Virus record (IMG/VR): IMGVR_UViG_3300028315_000314
Span: 1 to 38,166 of that record
DNA from: a virus
Length of the DNA: 38,166 nt
Strand: one strand, 5' to 3'
The stretch's first letter is position 1; each line of letters starts with the position of its first letter. Made by a program: the position numbers and the translations under genes. Below the pieces are notes generated by a model that saw nothing but the letters and a program-made list of their open reading frames with translations, did no database searches and was not told the DNA's origin. Shown here one piece after another: positions 4,152 through 30,395 of the stretch.

Positions 4152-6184
4152 GCCCCCAGCGCCGCGGTGACCCCGCCACGGATCCTGATGTTCTTCCGGA
4201 GCCAGGACATGAACTCATCCCCGGCGGAGCCGCCCACCCACTCGATGACCAGTGCCTGCACCCCACCCCGCCCCCCGGTGGCCGTGGCGAGCATCCGCTC
4301 AGTGTCGGGATTGCTGTGCACGGTGGAGCCGGGGGCCGTCTCGATCAGCTCCCGGCCGTGCTCGCCGACCATGATCAGTCCACTGCGGGGACCACCCCCC
4401 TGCGCCCCGATGATCCCACCGTGGGCGAAGGCCGTGGCGCGGCCGGGCTTCGCATTCAGTACGCGCTCGAAATAGCCCGTACTGACCCGCGTTCCATTGA
4501 CCTTCGAGATCACGTCGACGGACACGGTTCTGCTGTGGATCCCGGCAAGCGCAGCATTGGCCCGGTCGCGGAATTTCTGGAATTCCTTGTCCGCCGCTCT
4601 CAGCTTCGGACCGATTCCGGGGATGAACCCGAAGGCGACGGCGGCAGCATGCAGGATCTGCCCGAGGCCTTGTAGCCAGACGTCCACCATTGCCCGGAAT
4701 ACGGTCCATAGCGGCTTTATCAGTGCGGTGGTGAACTTGATCTGGTACGACAGTGCGGCGATGGCCACGACGACAGCACCGATGACCACCCCGGCGACGG
4801 TGCCGAGGGCGATGCCGAGGGCCTCCAACAGTTCCATCCATGGCACGCCTGAATTCCTGGCTCTGTCGATCGCGTCCTGGAAATTATCCATCGCCACCTG
4901 GATCAGTGGCATTGCCTTGTCTACAATGCTCATGATCGTGCCGTAGTAGCTCTTGGCGTAAGAGATGAGTCCGTCAAGGGCCGCACTAAGCGCGGGAATC
5001 AGGTTATGTGACAGTTCGGAGATGACCGGGCCGGCCTTAGCTCGCACATCGTCCCAGACCGGAGCCAGCTTCTGACCGATCTTCTCGGCCAGGTCCACAG
5101 CGGCGCCTCCCGTGGCTGTGAACCCTGCGCTCATCTTGCGTTTGAAGCGTTCGATCTTCGCACCGGACGTTTCCTGCATCGCCCTGCCCGCGGCGTCGGT
5201 GGCGCCGGCGACCTGCCCGAGAGCCTTGACCGCCTCGCTCGGGTCCAGGGCGTACAGGGCGTCGCCGAGGTCCTCGGCCTTGGTCCCGAAGAGTTGCACG
5301 GCCGCGGCGGAGCGTGCGATCGGATCCTTGATTCCGCGCAGCCGGTCCAGCGTCAGGTCCAGGGCCTTGTTGGCCCTGGGGCCGCCCGCGGCGATGTCCT
5401 CAGCCATTCGCTTACCGGACAGGCCAAGAGCCTTGAAGCCAGCTGCCGTATTCTTCGAGCCGTCGATTGCCCGGATCGAGAATTCCTTGATGGCATCCGC
5501 AACGGTGTCGGCGTCCCGCGCTCCGGCCTTCAGGCCTTGGCTGAGCAGTCCTGTCATCTGCTGCCCGGAGATACCGACCTTCCGGAACTGCGTTCCGTAC
5601 TCCGTCACCGTTTCCAGTAAATCATCGGCCTTGTTGGCCGACGACTGAAAGCCTTTGGTGATGATATCGAATGCCTCATCGGCATTCCCAGCCAGGCCCG
5701 TGCGCAGCAGCTGCCCCACGGCGGCAGTCACGCCGCCGAGGTCCTGGTCGAAGGCCTGCGCGACCGTGAGCGCCTTCTTGCTCAGGCCTTCAAGGCCGCC
5801 CGCGGCACCTTTTCCGAGGTCGCCGATATTCTTCGTAACTCCTTCGATGGCTGCATTGACCTCTTCAAGACTGTCACCGAATCCGGCCGCATAGACATGG
5901 CCGGAGGTCTTGCCCAGCCGCTCGGCATCAAGCCCCGCGGCGCCGAGGCGGGCGGCCAGCCGGGCGTTCAGCTTCTCCCGGTCGAGCGCCGAGGACACCG
6001 CACCGGCCAGGGCCACCCCCGCAGCCAGTCCTGCACCCGCGGCTCCAGCGGCGAGCATCGGGCCCATCGACCTGAAGCGGGCGCCGATGCCCTTGGCGGT
6101 CCGGTCAGCACCGTGCCGCGCGCTCTCGAACCCATGCCGCGTCTCATCCCTGGACTTGACGACGATCTCAATATCGTTGCCCAC
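4148..6184 (-). CDS. Tape measure protein
   Basis: A 678-residue protein, long for this neighbourhood, lying after the tail assembly chaperones as tape measures do. It sets tail length and occupies the tail lumen. It starts MGNDIEIVVKSRDETRHG and is rich in Ala and Gly. It has long helical stretches with TMP-like phrases (KALGLSGKRMAEDIAAGG, AAVQLFGTKAEDLGDALY), hydrophobic segments at about 40-70 and 445-475, and a C-terminal segment containing AFAHGGIIGAQGGGPRSGL that is typical of actinophage tape measures. At roughly 0.15 nm per residue, tail length would be about 100 nm (general rule, not measured). Confidence 0.92.
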   Translation of the reverse strand: MGNDIEIVVKSRDETRHGFESARHGADRTAKGIGARFRSMGPMLAAGAAGAGLAAGVALAGAVSSALDREKLNARLAARLGAAGLDAERLGKTSGHVYAAGFGDSLEEVNAAIEGVTKNIGDLGKGAAGGLEGLSKKALTVAQAFDQDLGGVTAAVGQLLRTGLAGNADEAFDIITKGFQSSANKADDLLETVTEYGTQFRKVGISGQQMTGLLSQGLKAGARDADTVADAIKEFSIRAIDGSKNTAAGFKALGLSGKRMAEDIAAGGPRANKALDLTLDRLRGIKDPIARSAAAVQLFGTKAEDLGDALYALDPSEAVKALGQVAGATDAAGRAMQETSGAKIERFKRKMSAGFTATGGAAVDLAEKIGQKLAPVWDDVRAKAGPVISELSHNLIPALSAALDGLISYAKSYYGTIMSIVDKAMPLIQVAMDNFQDAIDRARNSGVPWMELLEALGIALGTVAGVVIGAVVVAIAALSYQIKFTTALIKPLWTVFRAMVDVWLQGLGQILHAAAVAFGFIPGIGPKLRAADKEFQKFRDRANAALAGIHSRTVSVDVISKVNGTRVSTGYFERVLNAKPGRATAFAHGGIIGAQGGGPRSGLIMVGEHGRELIETAPGSTVHSNPDTERMLATATGGRGGVQALVIEWVGGSAGDEFMSWLRKNIRIRGGVTAALGA

Positions 6185-21499: not shown

Positions 21500-21689
21500 A
21501 CCTCATTCCCCGTTGAAGAATCGATATGTCCACACCGTGAACAACATGCTTCAGTCTGAAGGTTCTTCCAATCATCAACACCGCACCCGTCGGCGTCGTC
21601 TCCGCCGACCAGGCCCCGGTCGACCAGAGCACCCGTCGATCCAAAAGCCTGGCCAGCTCCAGCCTGGCCAGTTCGGCAACGTCCATCAC
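21486..21689 (-). CDS. Small protein of unknown function
   Basis: A 67-residue protein starting MMDVAELARLELARLLDRRV, with a helical N-terminus and a basic middle (MIGRTFRLKHVVHGVDISIL). It overlaps the membrane-protein gene by 14 bases and the pentapeptide gene by 1. No family is recognised. It could equally be a remnant. Confidence 0.45.
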   Translation of the reverse strand: MMDVAELARLELARLLDRRVLWSTGAWSAETTPTGAVLMIGRTFRLKHVVHGVDISILQRGMRCDEA

Positions 21690-22258
21690 TAGGCCTCCGT
21701 CCGAGCCACGCGCAGGTTGGCCCCGGACAGGTCAGCCCCGGACAGGTCAGCCCTGGACAGGTTGGCCCCAGACAGGTCGGCCCTGGACAGGTCAGCCCCG
21801 GACAGGTCAGCCCTGTACAGGTCAGCCCTGTACAGGTCAGCCCCGGACAGGTCAGCCCCGGACAGGTTGGCCACGCGCAGGTTGGCCCCGGACAGGTCAG
21901 TCCCGGACAGGTCAGTCCCGGACAGGTCGAGCCCGGACAGGTCAGCCCTGGACAGGCTGGCCCCGGACAGGCTGGCCCCGGACAGGTCGGCCTCGGGCAG
22001 GTCGGCCCAGCGCAGGTTGGCCCCGCGCAGGTCAGTCCCGGACAGGTTGGTCCCGGACAGGTTGGCCCCGTACAGGTTGGCCCCGTACAGGTTGGCCCGG
22101 CGCAGATCAGCCCCGGACAGGTTGGCCCCGGACAGGTCAGCCCTGTACAGATTAGCCCCGTGCAGATCGAGCCCGGACAGGTCGGCCCCGGACAGGTCGA
22201 GCCAGGACAGATCGAGCCCGTCCCGCACCATCTCCATCAGTTCTTCACGTGTTGCCAT
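21689..22258 (-). CDS. Pentapeptide-repeat protein 1
   Basis: A 189-residue protein: a short start [20 protein letters not shown], then about 34 tandem pentapeptides of the form A(D/N)LSG, with variants LDLSG, ANLYG and ADLYR, ending ANLRVARTEA. The Leu at the centre of each pentapeptide marks a right-handed quadrilateral beta-helix. Known members (MfpA, Qnr) mimic DNA and bind gyrase; most others are of unknown function. One of three tandem copies, separated from copy 2 by 9 bases and a GGTGG ribosome site. Confidence 0.9.
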   Translation of the reverse strand: MATREELMEMVRDGLDLSWLDLSGADLSGLDLHGANLYRADLSGANLSGADLRRANLYGANLYGANLSGTNLSGTDLRGANLRWADLPEADLSGASLSGASLSRADLSGLDLSGTDLSGTDLSGANLRVANLSGADLSGADLYRADLYRADLSGADLSRADLSGANLSRADLSGADLSGANLRVARTEA

Positions 22259-22292
22259 GTGTCCACCCTAGCACTCTGTGACAAGCTGTGGC
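22256..22292. repeat. 37-bp junction repeat, copy 1
   Basis: Spans the start codon of pentapeptide gene 1 and the last codons of gene 2 (minus strand: QLVTEC, stop, GGTGGACAC, ATG). The same sequence recurs at 23138-23174 and 23932-23968 with one base difference, marking the duplication unit of the array. Confidence 0.9.
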
Positions 22293-23140
22293 GACTGTCG
22301 AGCCCCGGACAGGTCAGCCCCGCGCAGGTCAGCCCCGGACAGGTCGGCCCCGGACAGGTCGGCCCTGTACAGGTTGGCCCCGGACAGGTCGGCCCCGGAC
22401 AGGTCGGCCCCGGACAGGTCGGCCCAGCGCAGGTTGGCCCCGGACAGGTTGACCCTGGATAGGTCGGCCCCGGACAGGTTGACCCTGTGCAGGTTGGCCC
22501 CGGACAGGTTGGCCCCGGACAGGTTGGCCCTGTACAGGTTGGCCCTGTACAGGTTGGCCCCGGACAGGTCGGCCCCGGACAGGTCGGCCCCGGACAGGTC
22601 GGCCCCGGACAGGTCGGCCCCGGACAGGTCGGCCCCGGACAGGTCGGCCCCGGACAGGTCAGCCCTGGACAGGGCTGACCTGTACAGGTCAGCCCTGGAC
22701 AGGTCAGCCCTGTACAGGTCAGCCCTGTACAGGTTGGCCCCGGACAGGTCAGTCCCGGACAGGTCGAGCCCGGACAGGTTGGCCCCGCGCAGGTCAGCCC
22801 TGGACAGGTCGGCCTCGGACAGGTTGGCCCCGGACAGGTCGGCCTCGGGCAGGTCGGCCCAGCGCAGGTTGGCCCCGCGCAGGTTGGACCCGCGCAGGTG
22901 GGCCCCGGACAGGTTGGCCCCGGACAGGTTGGCCCGGCGCAGGTTGGCCCCGGACGGGTCGGCCCCGGACAGGTTGGCCCCGGACAGGTTGGCCCTGTAC
23001 AGGTTGGCCCCGGACAGGTTGGCCCCGGACAGGTTGGCCCCGGACAGGTTGAGCCAGGACAGATCGAGCCCGGACAGGTCGAGCCCGGACAGGTCGAGCC
23101 CGTCCCAAACCATCTCCATCAGCTCTTCACGCGTCGTCAT
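22268..23140 (-). CDS. Pentapeptide-repeat protein 2
   Basis: A 290-residue protein, the longest of the three. Start [19 protein letters not shown], then roughly 52 pentapeptides, mostly ADLSG and ANLSG, including a run of seven identical ADLSG units; the tail is GARQSPQLVTEC. The DNA repeats are nearly perfect at 15 bp, which points to recent expansion by recombination or slippage. The uniform Asp/Asn ladder suggests a long acidic beta-helix rod. Confidence 0.9.
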   Translation of the reverse strand: MTTREELMEMVWDGLDLSGLDLSGLDLSWLNLSGANLSGANLSGANLYRANLSGANLSGADPSGANLRRANLSGANLSGAHLRGSNLRGANLRWADLPEADLSGANLSEADLSRADLRGANLSGLDLSGTDLSGANLYRADLYRADLSRADLYRSALSRADLSGADLSGADLSGADLSGADLSGADLSGADLSGANLYRANLYRANLSGANLSGANLHRVNLSGADLSRVNLSGANLRWADLSGADLSGADLSGANLYRADLSGADLSGADLRGADLSGARQSPQLVTEC

Positions 23141-23174
23141 GTGTCCACCCTAGCACTCTGTGGCAAGCTGTGGC
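23138..23174. repeat. 37-bp junction repeat, copy 2
   Basis: As the copy at 22256-22292 but with G for A at one position, so the upstream tail reads QLATEC. It joins pentapeptide genes 2 and 3. Confidence 0.9.
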
Positions 23175-23934
23175 GACTGTCGAGCCCCGTACAGGTTAGC
23201 CCCGTACAGGTCGAGCCCCGGACAGGTTGGCCCCGGACAGGTTGGCCCCGCGCAGGTCGGCCCCGGACAGGTTGGCCCCGGACAGGTTGGCCCCGCGCAG
23301 GTCGGCCCCGGACAGGTTGGCCCCGGACAGGTTGGCCCCGGACAGGTCAGCCCTGTACAGGTCGAGCCCCGGACAGGTTGGCCCCGGACAGGTCGACCCC
23401 GTACAGGTCAGCCCCATGCAGGTTGACCCCGCGCAGGTCAGTCCTGGACAGGTTGGCCCCGGACAGGTCGGCCTCGGACAGGTTGGCCTCGGACAGGTCG
23501 GCCTCGGACAGGTCGGCCCAGCGCAGGTCAGTCCTGGACAGGTTGGCCTCGGACAGGTCGGCCCCGGACAGGTTGGCCCCGGACAGGTCAGCCCCGCGCA
23601 GGTCGAGCCCGGACAGGTCAGCCCTGCGCAGGTCGAGCCCGGACAGGTCAGCCCTGGACAGGTTGGCCCTGGACAGGTCGGCCCCGGACAGGTCGGCCTC
23701 GGACAGGTCGGCCCGGCGCAGATCAGCCCCGGACAGGTCAGCCCTGTACAGGTTGGCCCTGTACAGGTCAGCCCTGTACAGATTAGCCCCGTGCAGGTCG
23801 AGCCCGGACAGGTCGAGCCCGGACAGGTCGAGCCAGGACAGATCGAGCCCGGACAGGTCGGCCCCGGACAGGTCGAGCCCGGACAGATCGAGCCCGTCCC
23901 GCACCATCTCCATCAGCTCTTCACGTGTTGCCAT
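23150..23934 (-). pseudogene. Pentapeptide-repeat protein 3, interrupted by two frameshifts
   Basis: It starts [20 protein letters not shown], very close to copy 1. The open frame ends at 23347 after 195 residues (SGARPVQG, stop). An extra base in a C-run at 23367-23370, and another at 23216-23219, each turn the usual GAGCCC into GAGCCCC. Removing both restores a 783-base frame of 260 residues ending QSPQLATEC, the same tail as copy 2. Either real decay to a 195-residue form, or sequencing/assembly errors in the repeats. The 195-residue product (23347-23934) would still form a beta-helix. Confidence 0.75.
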
Positions 23935-23972: not shown

Positions 23973-24617
23973 TCAAGGAGTATCGTCGGTGGCACAACGC
24001 AGGGCCTCGGCAATGGCCGTCCTCACCGCGGCGCTAGTCCGATCGTCCAGCCCCACGAAAGACAAGGCCGTACCCACGGCTGCAAAAAGGTCGCCGGCCA
24101 GCCTCGCGGCAGCCTCGCGCTGCTGGGCCTCGACCCCCAGCTTGACGCTCAGCTCGATCAGGCGTGCCAACCGGTCCCGCTCCTGATCGTGCAGCCTCAG
24201 CAGTACGGCTGGGCGCGCTTCCTGCACCAGGTCGACCCCCGGCGCAGGGCCAGAGCCCTTCTCGATACGTCTGGTCGTGCCCCAGATGGCCTCGGTTAGT
24301 CCCAGGGCGGAAATCTCCCACCGCAGGTAGTCGATATATCCGGCCGACCAGGCAATCTCCGTGAGCAGCCTCTGAATCGGGTCCACCTCACTGACCTGCT
24401 CGCCACGGAAGATCACTGACCAACTACGCTCAATCTCCGCCCTGGCGAGTCGGCGCTCTGCCGCGCGCTTAACATGGGAGATCGACCCTCCATGAGTCTT
24501 GCAAACGTTTCCACCAGGGATCGCTACAGCTCGGCACCGATCCCCGGTCCGGGATGAATGTGCGGTACAGCGCCGGGAGGGGTCTTTCTCCCATGGCTGC
24601 TGTCTCTTCCCTGTCAC
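23973..24617 (-). CDS. CxxHGG zinc-motif protein, candidate small terminase
   Basis: 214 residues from the GTG at 24617 (AGAGGTGGG upstream, GTGA overlap with the preceding frame); an ATG at 24680 would add 21 residues but lacks a ribosome site. The N-terminal motif [20 protein letters not shown] followed by [11 protein letters not shown] is a C-x-A...C...C-x-x-H-G-G metal site that I know from phage small-terminase and related DNA-binding proteins. The rest is helical ([40 protein letters not shown]), compatible with an oligomerising TerS. Against this, it lies over 5 kb from terL in another operon. Confidence 0.55.
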
Positions 24618-24766
24618 GGGACACCCACCTCTGCAATCTCCTGACAATCCTGCCCTACGGCGTTGCTCCGGGGCCGGCATCGGACAGCCATGTCATAGCA
24701 ACGAATAATGAGCACCAATTTTTCCTGAGTGATGCAAGCGTGCAGGTCAGAGACTAATTTCCCCAT
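24614..24766 (-). CDS. Possible small ORF before the CxxHGG gene
   Basis: A 50-residue frame starting MGKLVSDLHACITQEKLVLI after GGGGGGAAG, ending EVGVP with a GTGA overlap into the next gene. Four Cys are present. The overlap and ribosome site favour it, but base composition here is mixed and the region could instead be leader sequence. The open frame extends upstream to 24994 without coding character. Confidence 0.35.
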   Translation of the reverse strand: MGKLVSDLHACITQEKLVLIIRCYDMAVRCRPRSNAVGQDCQEIAEVGVP

Positions 24767-24996
24767 CTTCCCCCCGTGCCCAAGTATGCGCGCGAGGGAA
24801 AACTTCCCCCACGCTCCACCATCGTCCAACCGTCCCGCGCACCCCCTCCCCTGCGAGGGAGCCACCGAGCCGCCAGACCGCAGCCCCGCCAGGGGCCGCT
24901 GGGCTACTGAACCACGGCGCTGAGCTGCTGGATCACGGCGCTGGTGTCGCCCCCGCGGCCCGTACGGCCGCCCCTCCATTGGTTGAATACTCAAGA

Positions 24997-25036
24997 TAGG
25001 ACGGTAGGACAGTAGGGCGGTAGGACGGTAGGGCGG
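24997..25036. repeat. Five tandem 8-bp iterons
   Basis: TAGGACGG, TAGGACAG, TAGGGCGG, TAGGACGG, TAGGGCGG without spacers. With a period of 8 rather than 10-11 bp, successive sites rotate around the helix. They flank the AT-rich island of the candidate origin. Confidence 0.85.
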
Positions 25037-25125
25037 GACGAAAAAACTTATTTTTGACTATTATCCTCCATAACTCTATGTAATCATTGCAGGTAAGAGA
25101 GAGTATTAATCGGACTCGCAAACGC

Positions 25126-25146
25126 GCGCGAGACTTTTTCTCGCGC
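25126..25146 (-). terminator. Hairpin after the replication gene
   Basis: GCGCGAGA-CTTTT-TCTCGCGC, 8-bp perfect stem, about 60 bases past the stop of the primase gene. Likely a terminator of that gene, or a structural part of the origin region. Confidence 0.5.
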
Positions 25147-25208
25147 TAGACGCTAGGGCATGTCCTACGTCCTACCTCCCGGACGCCTGCTCGTCCTACT
25201 TCCGACGC

Positions 25209-27638
25209 CTACTTGTCCGGCCGCTTCGGACCCGGTTCGATCGTGTTCCCGCTCACGACGACCCAGCCCCGGGCGGCCGCCTCGGCCATGGCCTCGTCGG
25301 CCCAGCCCCGGTCCCTGGAGGCGATCGCCTGTCGCACCCCCGCCTTGCCGCCGACGACGCGCACGCCGCGGTCGTGCACCATTTCGGCCACCCGTCGGGC
25401 CACCCGCTGCATGGCGGCCGTGGCAGCGGCTTGCTCGCTGGCCACTGCCGACCTGGCCGCCACCGTGACCGCCCGGTCGTCCTCGGCTGCTCGCCGGGCC
25501 GCCCGCCGGGCGCTGAATGCGTTCACCAGCCCGTCCCGCACCCCACAGCTGGTCTCCCACAGCACCCGCGTCAGTTCCCAGTCGGCCTCGGTGATCTTGT
25601 CCCGCAGGTCCAGCACGGCCAGCAGGGCGGCCAGCTTGGCCCTGTGCAACGGCCAGTGCCCGTTCAGCCCACTAGGGGCCGCCCCAACCCTCCTAGCTGC
25701 CACACGGGCCGCGCGCAACTGCACCCTGGCCGCATCTGGAAGCTCCAGGTCCCCGGTCGGCAGCATGTGCCCGACGTTGCGTAGCCCCCCGGGCCAGCTT
25801 CCGGCCTCGCCGGCCCCCTCCGCCCCACCGTCGGACACGTCATCGGAGTGCGCCGAGACGAAAAGAAATCGCTGCGGTGTCCCCCCGGCCGCGTCATCGA
25901 ACAACGGCCCGATCGTGCCGGGCTGGAACCCGAGCACCATCCCCAGTGCATATTCCCCGTCCGGGACGATCCGTCTACGCTCTACCGAGGCATTGGCCTG
26001 CCCGAGTGTCTCAGCCTTCCAGGCCTTGCGGATCTCCGAGGCGATGGTCGTCCCGGAGCGCTCCATCATCCGCACCAGGGCCTCGCCCTCATCGGCGAAG
26101 AACAGCGCGTGGTCATACATCTTTTTCCTGACCAGCTTCGTTTTTGCCTCGCCCTTTCTGGGGCCGGAAAGGTAAGTTTCGCCAGTCAATTCCTCGACCA
26201 TCCCGTAAAAAGCCTCGGCCATCCCCTCACCGCTACCCAGCGGTAGTCCGTCGTTGTCCGGCATTCCCGGTAACGGGCCCGGTACCGGCAGCAGCTCCCG
26301 TGCACAGCGCCACGCCTCGGACTTGCCTGCCGAGGAGTCCCCCACCACCACCACGGCGAGATTCAGGCTGGCCCGTCCCAGCCCCGTATCGACCCGTACT
26401 GACGGCCGGATGAACGCGCTCAGCCGGGCCAGCACGCAGCCGAGCACGGCGTCCGGGCTGAGCACCCGGCTCAGCGCCGCGGCCCGGATCACTCCCAGCG
26501 CCGCGCCGGTACCCCAGACCTCTTGTGGAAGGTTGGCCAACCCCGCCGACCCCGTCACGGCCGGCGCCGTACGCTCCCGTGCAGCCCCGGAACGTTTCCG
26601 TCCAGGCCAGAGATCGCCGCCCCCGCCCGGCGGTGGCCCCATAGGCCCGGCTGACGGCTTCGTGGGCCCCTGCGGGCCCGGCTCCGGCCCGTCGCCCGGC
26701 CCGTCATACGCCGAGGTGTCATGCCGGGCCCGCACCTCGGCGATCCGCGCCGCGGTGAGCTGTCCCACGGCGAAGCCGACCACCCGGTCGAACTCGCCAG
26801 CCGCGTCGCGGCGGCGGAGCTCCTGCTCGTCAAACCGGGCCAGGAACTGCGCGCGCAGCTCGCCGAGGACCGGCCGGGCCGGGAAGCGCCCGGCCGCGGC
26901 CTCGCGCACGATCCAGCACGCAGCCCGGACGCAGGCATCATGCCGGCCGGACCCGCCGGTGACCTCGGCGGCGAACATGCTCAGGATCGCCCGCGACGCG
27001 AACGGCCCCGCCTGCGCCGTGGTGCAGTAGTCGAGAAATTGCTCGACCTCACCCTTGCTGGCGATGTCCCGTGCACCGTCGGCATCAGGCAAGGCCTGCG
27101 CCACCTCATCGGGGAGGAAAGGAATCTCCCCGATCCTCACCCACCGGTAACGTCCCCCGGCCTCCCGGTGGCGTGTCGGGGTGACGACGATGACCCCATT
27201 CGCCCCCCTGACCTCCCCCCATCCGCGGCCACCGATCCCGGTTATCCTCCCGGTGGAGTTTCCGAGCCTGTGCCCCGGCGGGACCCGGAAGACGTAATGC
27301 CCCCGGCGGGGGGAGCCATCCTCCCTGGTGCGCTGGAACGGTGCCAGGTCCAGGTGCTCCCACAGCCATTTCGGGACATTTTCGGGGTGGTCAACATCGA
27401 AGATGACCAGTCCGCACGCGCCGGCGTGTAGAAAAATCCCCGTACCGTCCGCACAGCCGGCGAACCAACCGGCAATCACCTCGGCGTTATCACTCGTCCT
27501 GGTCGGCCAGCCCTTCCCCAGGATCGATCCGGGGTTTTTCGATCCGGCGGTCAAGGGGCCGACCATCAGTCCGGCCGCAGCGTAGGCCAGGGCCGCGGAC
27601 AGGACGTCCGCGGTCGTCGCGATTTTCGGGATATTCAC
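25209..27638 (-). CDS. Primase-polymerase/helicase replication protein
   Basis: An 809-residue two-domain protein; GTG start at 27638 after AAGGAA. The N-terminal ~200 residues are a bifunctional primase-polymerase (AEP) domain: IFDVDHPE with D81 and D83 (metal), SPRRGHYVFRVP with H114, and GWGEVRGANGVIVVTPT. After a Gly/Pro-rich linker (about 308-365) comes an ATPase resembling DUF3987 proteins: Walker A GDSSAGKS at 433-440, Walker B ALFFADEGE at 511-519. The C-terminal ~120 residues are Ala/Arg-rich with a final winged-helix-like part. It likely primes and unwinds at the adjacent origin. No polymerase gene is present. Confidence 0.85.
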   Translation of the reverse strand: MNIPKIATTADVLSAALAYAAAGLMVGPLTAGSKNPGSILGKGWPTRTSDNAEVIAGWFAGCADGTGIFLHAGACGLVIFDVDHPENVPKWLWEHLDLAPFQRTREDGSPRRGHYVFRVPPGHRLGNSTGRITGIGGRGWGEVRGANGVIVVTPTRHREAGGRYRWVRIGEIPFLPDEVAQALPDADGARDIASKGEVEQFLDYCTTAQAGPFASRAILSMFAAEVTGGSGRHDACVRAACWIVREAAAGRFPARPVLGELRAQFLARFDEQELRRRDAAGEFDRVVGFAVGQLTAARIAEVRARHDTSAYDGPGDGPEPGPQGPTKPSAGPMGPPPGGGGDLWPGRKRSGAARERTAPAVTGSAGLANLPQEVWGTGAALGVIRAAALSRVLSPDAVLGCVLARLSAFIRPSVRVDTGLGRASLNLAVVVVGDSSAGKSEAWRCARELLPVPGPLPGMPDNDGLPLGSGEGMAEAFYGMVEELTGETYLSGPRKGEAKTKLVRKKMYDHALFFADEGEALVRMMERSGTTIASEIRKAWKAETLGQANASVERRRIVPDGEYALGMVLGFQPGTIGPLFDDAAGGTPQRFLFVSAHSDDVSDGGAEGAGEAGSWPGGLRNVGHMLPTGDLELPDAARVQLRAARVAARRVGAAPSGLNGHWPLHRAKLAALLAVLDLRDKITEADWELTRVLWETSCGVRDGLVNAFSARRAARRAAEDDRAVTVAARSAVASEQAAATAAMQRVARRVAEMVHDRGVRVVGGKAGVRQAIASRDRGWADEAMAEAAARGWVVVSGNTIEPGPKRPDK

Positions 27639-29495: not shown

Positions 29496-30395
29496 ATGTG
29501 GTCAATGATCCTGATCGTGATTCTGGCGATCGTGACCACCTGGATCTTCTTTTTCAGGTCCAAGGTGGATCCGGAAGGTAAAGAAGATCGCCAGATCCTG
29601 ACAATCTCCGGAGCGCTCAGTGCGGCTGCGCTCAGTGCGACTATCTTCCTGTGCACCTTCACGGTGGTGCAGGGATACGAGGTCGGCGTGCCGGTAACCT
29701 TCGGGAACGTCGGTAGGCCGATGAACTCCGGCGCCCACGTAGTGGCTCCATGGACCAGGGTGGAGACCTACCCCACCCGTCCACTCACGGTTCCGGACGT
29801 GACAATTAAGGCCCGTACCAGCCAGGGTGGCATGTTCACGATCACCATCGGGGCACGGTGGTCCGTCGACCGTGCCGGAGCACGTGAGCTGTACTTCCAG
29901 GCCCGGACCGGGGACGAAGAGGAGATCACCAAAAAGATAGTCGATAAGGCATTGGGGCAGACCACGCAGAACGTGTACTCGCGCCTCGACAACGCCGCGG
30001 CGATCAACGACCGGGCCGGGGTCGAGCACAAGCTGCTCGACGAGCTGTCAAAGCAGCTGAAACAATTCGGCATTACTGCGAACAACATCTTCTTGAGAGA
30101 GGTTGAGCCGGACAAGGCGACGGCGTCAACGATCGCCCAGCTGACGGCACAGCAGCAGGCCACGAAAGTTGCCATCGCGTCCCAGCAGACGGCGACCGAG
30201 CGGGCCAAGGCGCAGCGGATCACCGCCGACGGCCTGCGTGCCGCGGCGGCCGCGACGCCCCCGAACCTGACGCCGCAGCAGGTCCAACTGCTGTGCCTGC
30301 AGGCCTGGGAGCGTCAGGTCTCGGAGGCAACGAGCAGGGGCGTGGTCGTCTACACCGCGCCGTGCTCGCGGGCTCCACAGGCAATCGCCAAGTAG
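29496..30395 (+). CDS. SPFH/band-7 (prohibitin/HflK-like) membrane protein
   Basis: A 299-residue protein, ATG after GAGGGA. There are two hydrophobic segments: 1-20 (MWSMILIVILAIVTTWIFFF) and about 38-58. The SPFH core follows: EVGVPVTFGNVGRPMNSG, APWTRVETYPTRPLTVPD, MFTITIGARWSVDRAG, then the helical DELSKQLKQFGITANNIFL and a coiled-coil Ala/Gln part (TIAQLTAQQQATKVAIASQQ). Family members form large rings on membranes and regulate proteases or microdomains. In phages they are sporadic. It has its own hairpin terminator and lies between copies of a duplicated sequence, so it is a likely moron. Confidence 0.85.
   Translation: MWSMILIVILAIVTTWIFFFRSKVDPEGKEDRQILTISGALSAAALSATIFLCTFTVVQGYEVGVPVTFGNVGRPMNSGAHVVAPWTRVETYPTRPLTVPDVTIKARTSQGGMFTITIGARWSVDRAGARELYFQARTGDEEEITKKIVDKALGQTTQNVYSRLDNAAAINDRAGVEHKLLDELSKQLKQFGITANNIFLREVEPDKATASTIAQLTAQQQATKVAIASQQTATERAKAQRITADGLRAAAAATPPNLTPQQVQLLCLQAWERQVSEATSRGVVVYTAPCSRAPQAIAK

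Follow-up and report, generated by a model that had tools for sequence, protein, structure and literature searches.

In a 38,166-bp virus record, the whole of which is called the window below, we describe a segment (positions 24,997–25,199) that is very probably the replication origin of an actinobacteriophage, forming one module with the adjoining primase-polymerase (prim-pol) gene as its initiator, as judged from sequence comparison. We infer that the segment functions as an origin through binding, melting and priming by the prim-pol protein. The C-terminal winged helix of this protein, acting as oligomers, would bind both of the convergent TAGGAC-type iteron sets, its MCM-like ATPase ring would melt the AT-rich island between the arrays, and its N-terminal prim-pol domain, with or without a host polymerase, would begin synthesizing DNA within the melted island, perhaps from a conserved GCAGGTCAG-like core.

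The left arm of the window carries siphovirus-type head and tail genes (terminase, portal, protease, capsid and tape measure), and replication genes lie to the right (prim-pol, helicase, RusA-like resolvase and exonuclease). The iteron segment lies in noncoding DNA that separates the prim-pol gene from the next same-strand gene at 23,973–24,680, and begins ~10 bp beyond the stop codon of the prim-pol, that is, 3′ of the gene, in agreement with an earlier sequence-only reading which had placed it beside the prim-pol (Table 1). The Prim-Pol domain belongs to PF09250, and an AlphaFold2 model built with 48 sequences (mean pLDDT 84) consists of a prim-pol domain, an ATPase and a C-terminal winged helix, the last being modelled confidently as the helix-helix-helix-hairpin typical of this fold. 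The best Foldseek matches were MCM helicases (E 1.9e-6), a partial match with a query TM-score of only ~0.25, and sequence search gave no solved-structure relative. The winged helix can be aligned throughout the prim-pol relatives described below.

Elsewhere in the window, three pentapeptide-repeat ORFs (Pfam E down to 5.6e-99) lie side by side at 21,689–23,934 on the minus strand, encoded by ~144 copies of a 15-bp repeat, which for a 38-kb phage is an unusually long array. Among the pentapeptide proteins of phages and bacteria, some are DNA mimics and gyrase binders. The rightward replication operon opens with a gene at 29,496–30,395 for a Band 7/SPFH domain protein (Pfam 2.1e-24; PHROG "lipoprotein").

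Table 1. Features of the proposed origin module and of its prim-pol gene in the window.
Feature	Position	Strand	Remarks
Second core copy TGCAGGTCAGAGA	24741..24753	+	Outside the arrays, in the weaker AT-rich stretch 250 bp away
Left iteron array	24997..25036	+	Five head-to-tail 8-bp repeats, consensus TAGGACGG, oriented to the island
AT-rich island	25037..25112	.	Predicted DNA-unwinding element
Core motif TGCAGGTAAGAGA	25088..25100	+	Window version of GC[AT]GGTCAG; proposed priming start site
GC-rich flank, AAACGCGCGCGAGA...TCTCGCGC	25115..25146	.	8-bp inverted repeat 25126-25133/25139-25146
Degenerate inverted site GCCCTA	25154..25159	-	
Two adjoining inverted iterons GTCCTAC GTCCTAC	25162..25175	-	Starts at 25162 and 25169
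Third inverted iteron GTCCTAC	25193..25199	-	10 bp from the prim-pol stop codon
Prim-pol gene (proposed initiator)	25209..27638	-	809 aa
Winged-helix coding part	25233..25421	-	aa 740-802; proposed iteron reader
Prim-pol protein domains			Prim-Pol aa 16-177; DUF3987-type/MCM-like ATPase ~aa 370-600; C-terminal winged helix

The array, island and inverted sites of the window are far beyond chance. The left array reads TAGGACGG TAGGACAG TAGGGCGG TAGGACGG TAGGGCGG, five units with zero spacer that match the 8-bp consensus at 37 of 40 letters, compared with a tandem score of 30 for the best other array in the genome (pentapeptide-repeat genes excluded) and maxima of 28–31 in 40 Markov-simulated 38-kb genomes. 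The sequence-only reading had called these five direct repeats correctly, as it had the inverted GTCCTAC sites, to which a degenerate fourth can be added. TAGGRC occurs nine times within 230 bp and at most twice in any other 230-bp window of the genome, and its sites are convergent with a perfect split, five forward on the left and four reverse on the right; the Poisson P of this clustering is ~6e-17, for a motif picked after the region had been seen. Whether AT content is taken over 50, 80, 100 or 200 bp, the genome-wide maximum falls in this region, with 74% AT at 25,038–25,087 versus 64% for the runner-up 50-bp window. The earlier wording "only AT-rich island" is therefore fair in that the island is the strongest of the genome, although a weaker AT-rich stretch is found near 24,684–24,770.

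By an exact 7-mer score, 24 of 220 control windows equal or exceed the window's own segment, because the pentapeptide-repeat array dominates the score and the left array is degenerate; since this score failed to rank the segment first, the degenerate motif and the tandem score were used for the window. The segment can also be folded into a large stem-loop whose stem is formed by the iterons (ssDNA fold z -3.8), a pairing that arises because the iterons are inverted. Searches for Rfam families and tRNAs found none, and a promoter or terminator reading of the segment was rejected, the matches being at chance level. GC skew, which had been suggested as a check, was rejected as an origin marker for the window: the cumulative minimum lies at 28.9 kb, where gene orientation flips, and not at 25.1 kb, so that the measure is confounded by gene orientation.

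A DNA-level search with the 3.7-kb region against the phage collection gave no match, and single-sequence scans with the prim-pol recovered the window alone from viral contigs and nothing from genomes. Using tblastn with the prim-pol, we found the annotated circular 59-kb Nonomuraea plasmid III, which carries phage genes, as well as Gordonia phage Jojo24. The plasmid prim-pol is 39% identical across the ATPase and C-terminus, and just past its stop codon the same plan is written in other letters (ATGTGGAC...GTCCACAT); the same plan is seen just past the prim-pol stop in Jojo24 (CCTGGAA...TTCCAGG). The GC-skew minimum of the Nonomuraea plasmid lies 2.9 kb from the module. An alignment of these three proteins then retrieved 53 viral loci, the window included, and 22 loci from Actinomycetota genomes; the resulting 75 loci contain a few near-duplicates, and their sampling is biased because the relatives were collected through ATPase motifs.

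The layout recurs behind the prim-pol in dozens of actinobacterial phages and prophages, where the usual plan within the 200–300 bp directly 3′ of the gene is a forward iteron array, an AT-rich core and an inverted array. At 45 of the 75 loci, the 420 bp at the prim-pol 3′ end hold the strictly best direct/inverted 7-mer cluster of their own locus (~110–620 windows each), and at 41 of 73 loci the locus-wide AT-richest 80 bp falls 0–250 bp past the stop codon, with ~1.5 expected. Many relatives also possess CGCGAG elements resembling the GC-rich flank of the window. That the same layout trails the same gene so widely argues strongly for the origin that the sequence-only reading had suspected. 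Its remark that spacer-free 8-bp iterons are uncommon does not hold for this family, in which a start-to-start spacing of 8–11 bp is usual.

About one fifth of the loci have no clear array at the expected place (e.g., L010, Catdawg and Tsukamurella plasmid 8). Many apparent exceptions have their arrays within a lengthened 3′ end of the coding region, as in L041–L044, L076 and L077, or past a short downstream stretch, as in L007, where they are found a few hundred bp further on. In L041, L043 and L044 the arrays lie within the last ~400 bp of the prim-pol gene, and there, as in L076 and L077, the iterons are translated, so the putative origin of these five appears to overlap the initiator gene; the translated iterons of L041 and L042 give repeated PEVHPVP peptides. 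Catdawg and Tsukamurella plasmid 8 show no iteron layout at the prim-pol 3′ end, and prim-pol homologues without the pattern also occur in Larva, where the helicase is in a separate gene, and in L010. Eight records were added later, four of which rank first (Gordonia phages BetterKatz and TinyDot, prophiGD12-2 and Dulem virus 32) and one, TPA4, ties first in the 7-mer cluster ranking. Corynebacterium phage CL31 (L083) ranks only sixth, with arrays visible by eye.

The letters of the iterons vary widely. Thirty-five different iteron 7-mers were counted at 48 loci, and the iterons of relatives include GTGGACA, GGGGGGACA, GTACAC, GGTGGCG, TGGGGAT, ACTCCGGG, GGTTGGAC, GTCGGAC and GTAGGCC, while GTAGGAC, the iteron of the window, is also used by L034 and L052. 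Iteron similarity correlates with winged-helix identity when ATPase identity is controlled (partial rank correlation 0.22, permutation P 0.001, 48 loci) and not with ATPase identity when the winged helix is controlled (r 0.01), a modest Mantel correlation from which shared ancestry is only partly removed. Winged-helix identity is higher in same-iteron pairs in every ATPase-identity bin. As a counter-case, the window and L052 both use GTAGGAC, yet their winged helices are only 9% identical. These comparisons support, without proving, that the iteron sequence follows the C-terminal winged helix and not the ATPase, and together with the predicted fold they favour the earlier suggestion that the prim-pol itself could bind the repeats.

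Given these observations, three other explanations of the repeats can be weighed. They might be operators or stoperators of a phage repressor, or autoregulatory sites of the prim-pol operon, with replication starting elsewhere; repressors typically use short repeated sites, initiators often autoregulate and one promoter-like match lies nearby at 24,681–24,709. We consider this quite unlikely, however, because the sites lie 3′ of the gene rather than at a promoter, with promoter and terminator matches no better than chance, because the layout stays with the prim-pol 3′ end despite differing neighbours among elements, and because the iterons track the prim-pol winged helix; an operator would also leave the AT island between convergent arrays unexplained. 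Still less probable is that the segment serves partition or packaging (as parS or pac/cos) and is here by coincidence. Direct-repeat centromeres do adjoin repA in some mycobacteriophages (PMC7157519), and the module is flanked by replication genes and head genes both in the window and in Nonomuraea plasmid III, but no parAB was recognised among the scanned ORFs, the terminase is ~7 kb away, the neighbours in Jojo24 are not packaging genes, and neither function accounts for the AT island or the tie to the prim-pol winged helix. The least credible is a host DnaA-dependent origin with the prim-pol merely as polymerase, an idea drawn from the DnaA box of the sequence-only reading and from relatives such as L003 that have TTGTCCACA-like iterons, since no box with one mismatch or fewer occurs in 24,500–25,400 and the iteron letters differ among relatives too widely for the site of a host protein. 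The "partial DnaA box" itself, TTATCCTCC, was rejected as uninformative, having two mismatches to the forms searched (TTWTNCACA, TTGTCCACA and TTRTCCACA, as 9-mers), which is at chance level.

The replication origin that we favour has a further element, a GC[AT]GGTCAG-like core in the island, represented in the window by GCAGGTAAGAG at 25,089; the second copy reads GCAGGTCAGAG from 24,742. The strict form was found in the islands of 15 of 66 loci versus 1.7 expected, and looser forms in about twice as many. In CL31, three GCAGGTCA-type cores alternate with ACGTGTGGTA iterons just past the prim-pol stop at 4395; the CL31 genome paper does not mention an origin. As the prim-pol of NrS-1 begins synthesis at a specific template motif (PMC8718748), a priming role for the core is a reasonable guess by analogy. 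A bolder picture, possible but on the doubtful side, is that the actinobacterial prim-pol elements are single-protein replicons with two codes, fast-changing iterons read by the winged helix, which would give each element a private origin, and a slow-changing GCAGGTCAG core serving as the template start signal of the prim-pol, so that origin choice, melting and priming would be carried out by one polypeptide on ~200 bp.

This kind of origin is known, and our literature searches, which covered open papers only, found no published description of the variant in the prim-pol family or of its family-wide scope, nor any account of where these actinobacteriophages begin replication. The two-sided iteron origin has been published as confined to PICIs, with which the prim-pol family conflicts as a counter-example at the sequence level. 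For dozens of elements, among them phages of Gordonia terrae 3612 and Corynebacterium glutamicum, both harmless as laboratory hosts, the results also yield a specific origin prediction; the ~35 iteron alphabets make up a natural series for studying the evolution of private initiator-origin codes, and a practical use may lie in compatible replicons for actinobacterial vectors.

Among known systems, classical iteron/DnaA theta plasmid origins have DnaA boxes beside their iterons, from which the window differs as described above. NrS-1 resembles it in using a prim-pol as phage polymerase that starts de novo at a specific template sequence (PMC8718748), although the signal known for NrS-1 is TTTGGTTA or GTG in the template, whereas the GCAGGTCAG core is only proposed as such a signal. 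The origin of the archaeal plasmid pRN1 lies 3′ of the orf904 prim-pol gene and is required, and ORF904, like the window protein, joins a prim-pol, a helicase and a winged helix; the ATPase is however MCM-like in the window and SF3 in pRN1, where the authors saw neither iterons nor an AT-rich origin and propose a stem-loop of 100 nt (PMC4234260). In the RepA/ori module of Vibrio PLE, which resembles the module proposed for the window family, the DNA-binding domain of the initiator covaries with the iterons, as shown by swaps, and rep and ori are exchangeable as a unit (PMC8263062); it differs in having a RepA_N initiator without primase or helicase and semi-palindromic iterons of ~30 bp.

In the SaPI Rep and SCCmec Cch2 proteins the iterons are read by a C-terminal domain (PMC7581432), as is proposed for the window protein. 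Cch2 is a self-loading helicase and uses this domain to bind direct repeats that lie downstream of the cch2 gene (PMC7581432), but it is a D5-type helicase without a fused prim-pol, with only three AAGTG iterons, in a staphylococcal cassette. In SaPIs and PICIs the origin follows rep immediately on its 3′ side, and an AT-rich region always lies between two sets of short iterons (PMC6092414); the window segment and most of its relatives are arranged likewise directly 3′ of the prim-pol gene, the window having five and four TAGGRC sites around its island. Their iterons are likewise element-specific, and the PICI primase and helicase initiator are sometimes fused (PMC6092414). PICI Rep proteins are, on the other hand, of the D5_N/Primase_Cterm or DUF927 type, in contrast to the PF09250 Prim-Pol, DUF3987/MCM-like ATPase and winged helix of the window, and the GC[AT]GGTCAG core is a feature of the actinobacterial prim-pol family that sets it apart from SaPIs and PICIs. 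PICIs are satellites of other bacteria, whereas the prim-pol family comprises phages, prophages and plasmids of Actinomycetota, and the window is a siphovirus-like genome with its own terminase, portal, capsid and tape measure genes and so is not a PICI. The comparison nevertheless stands that the candidate origin of the window would work like a PICI origin.
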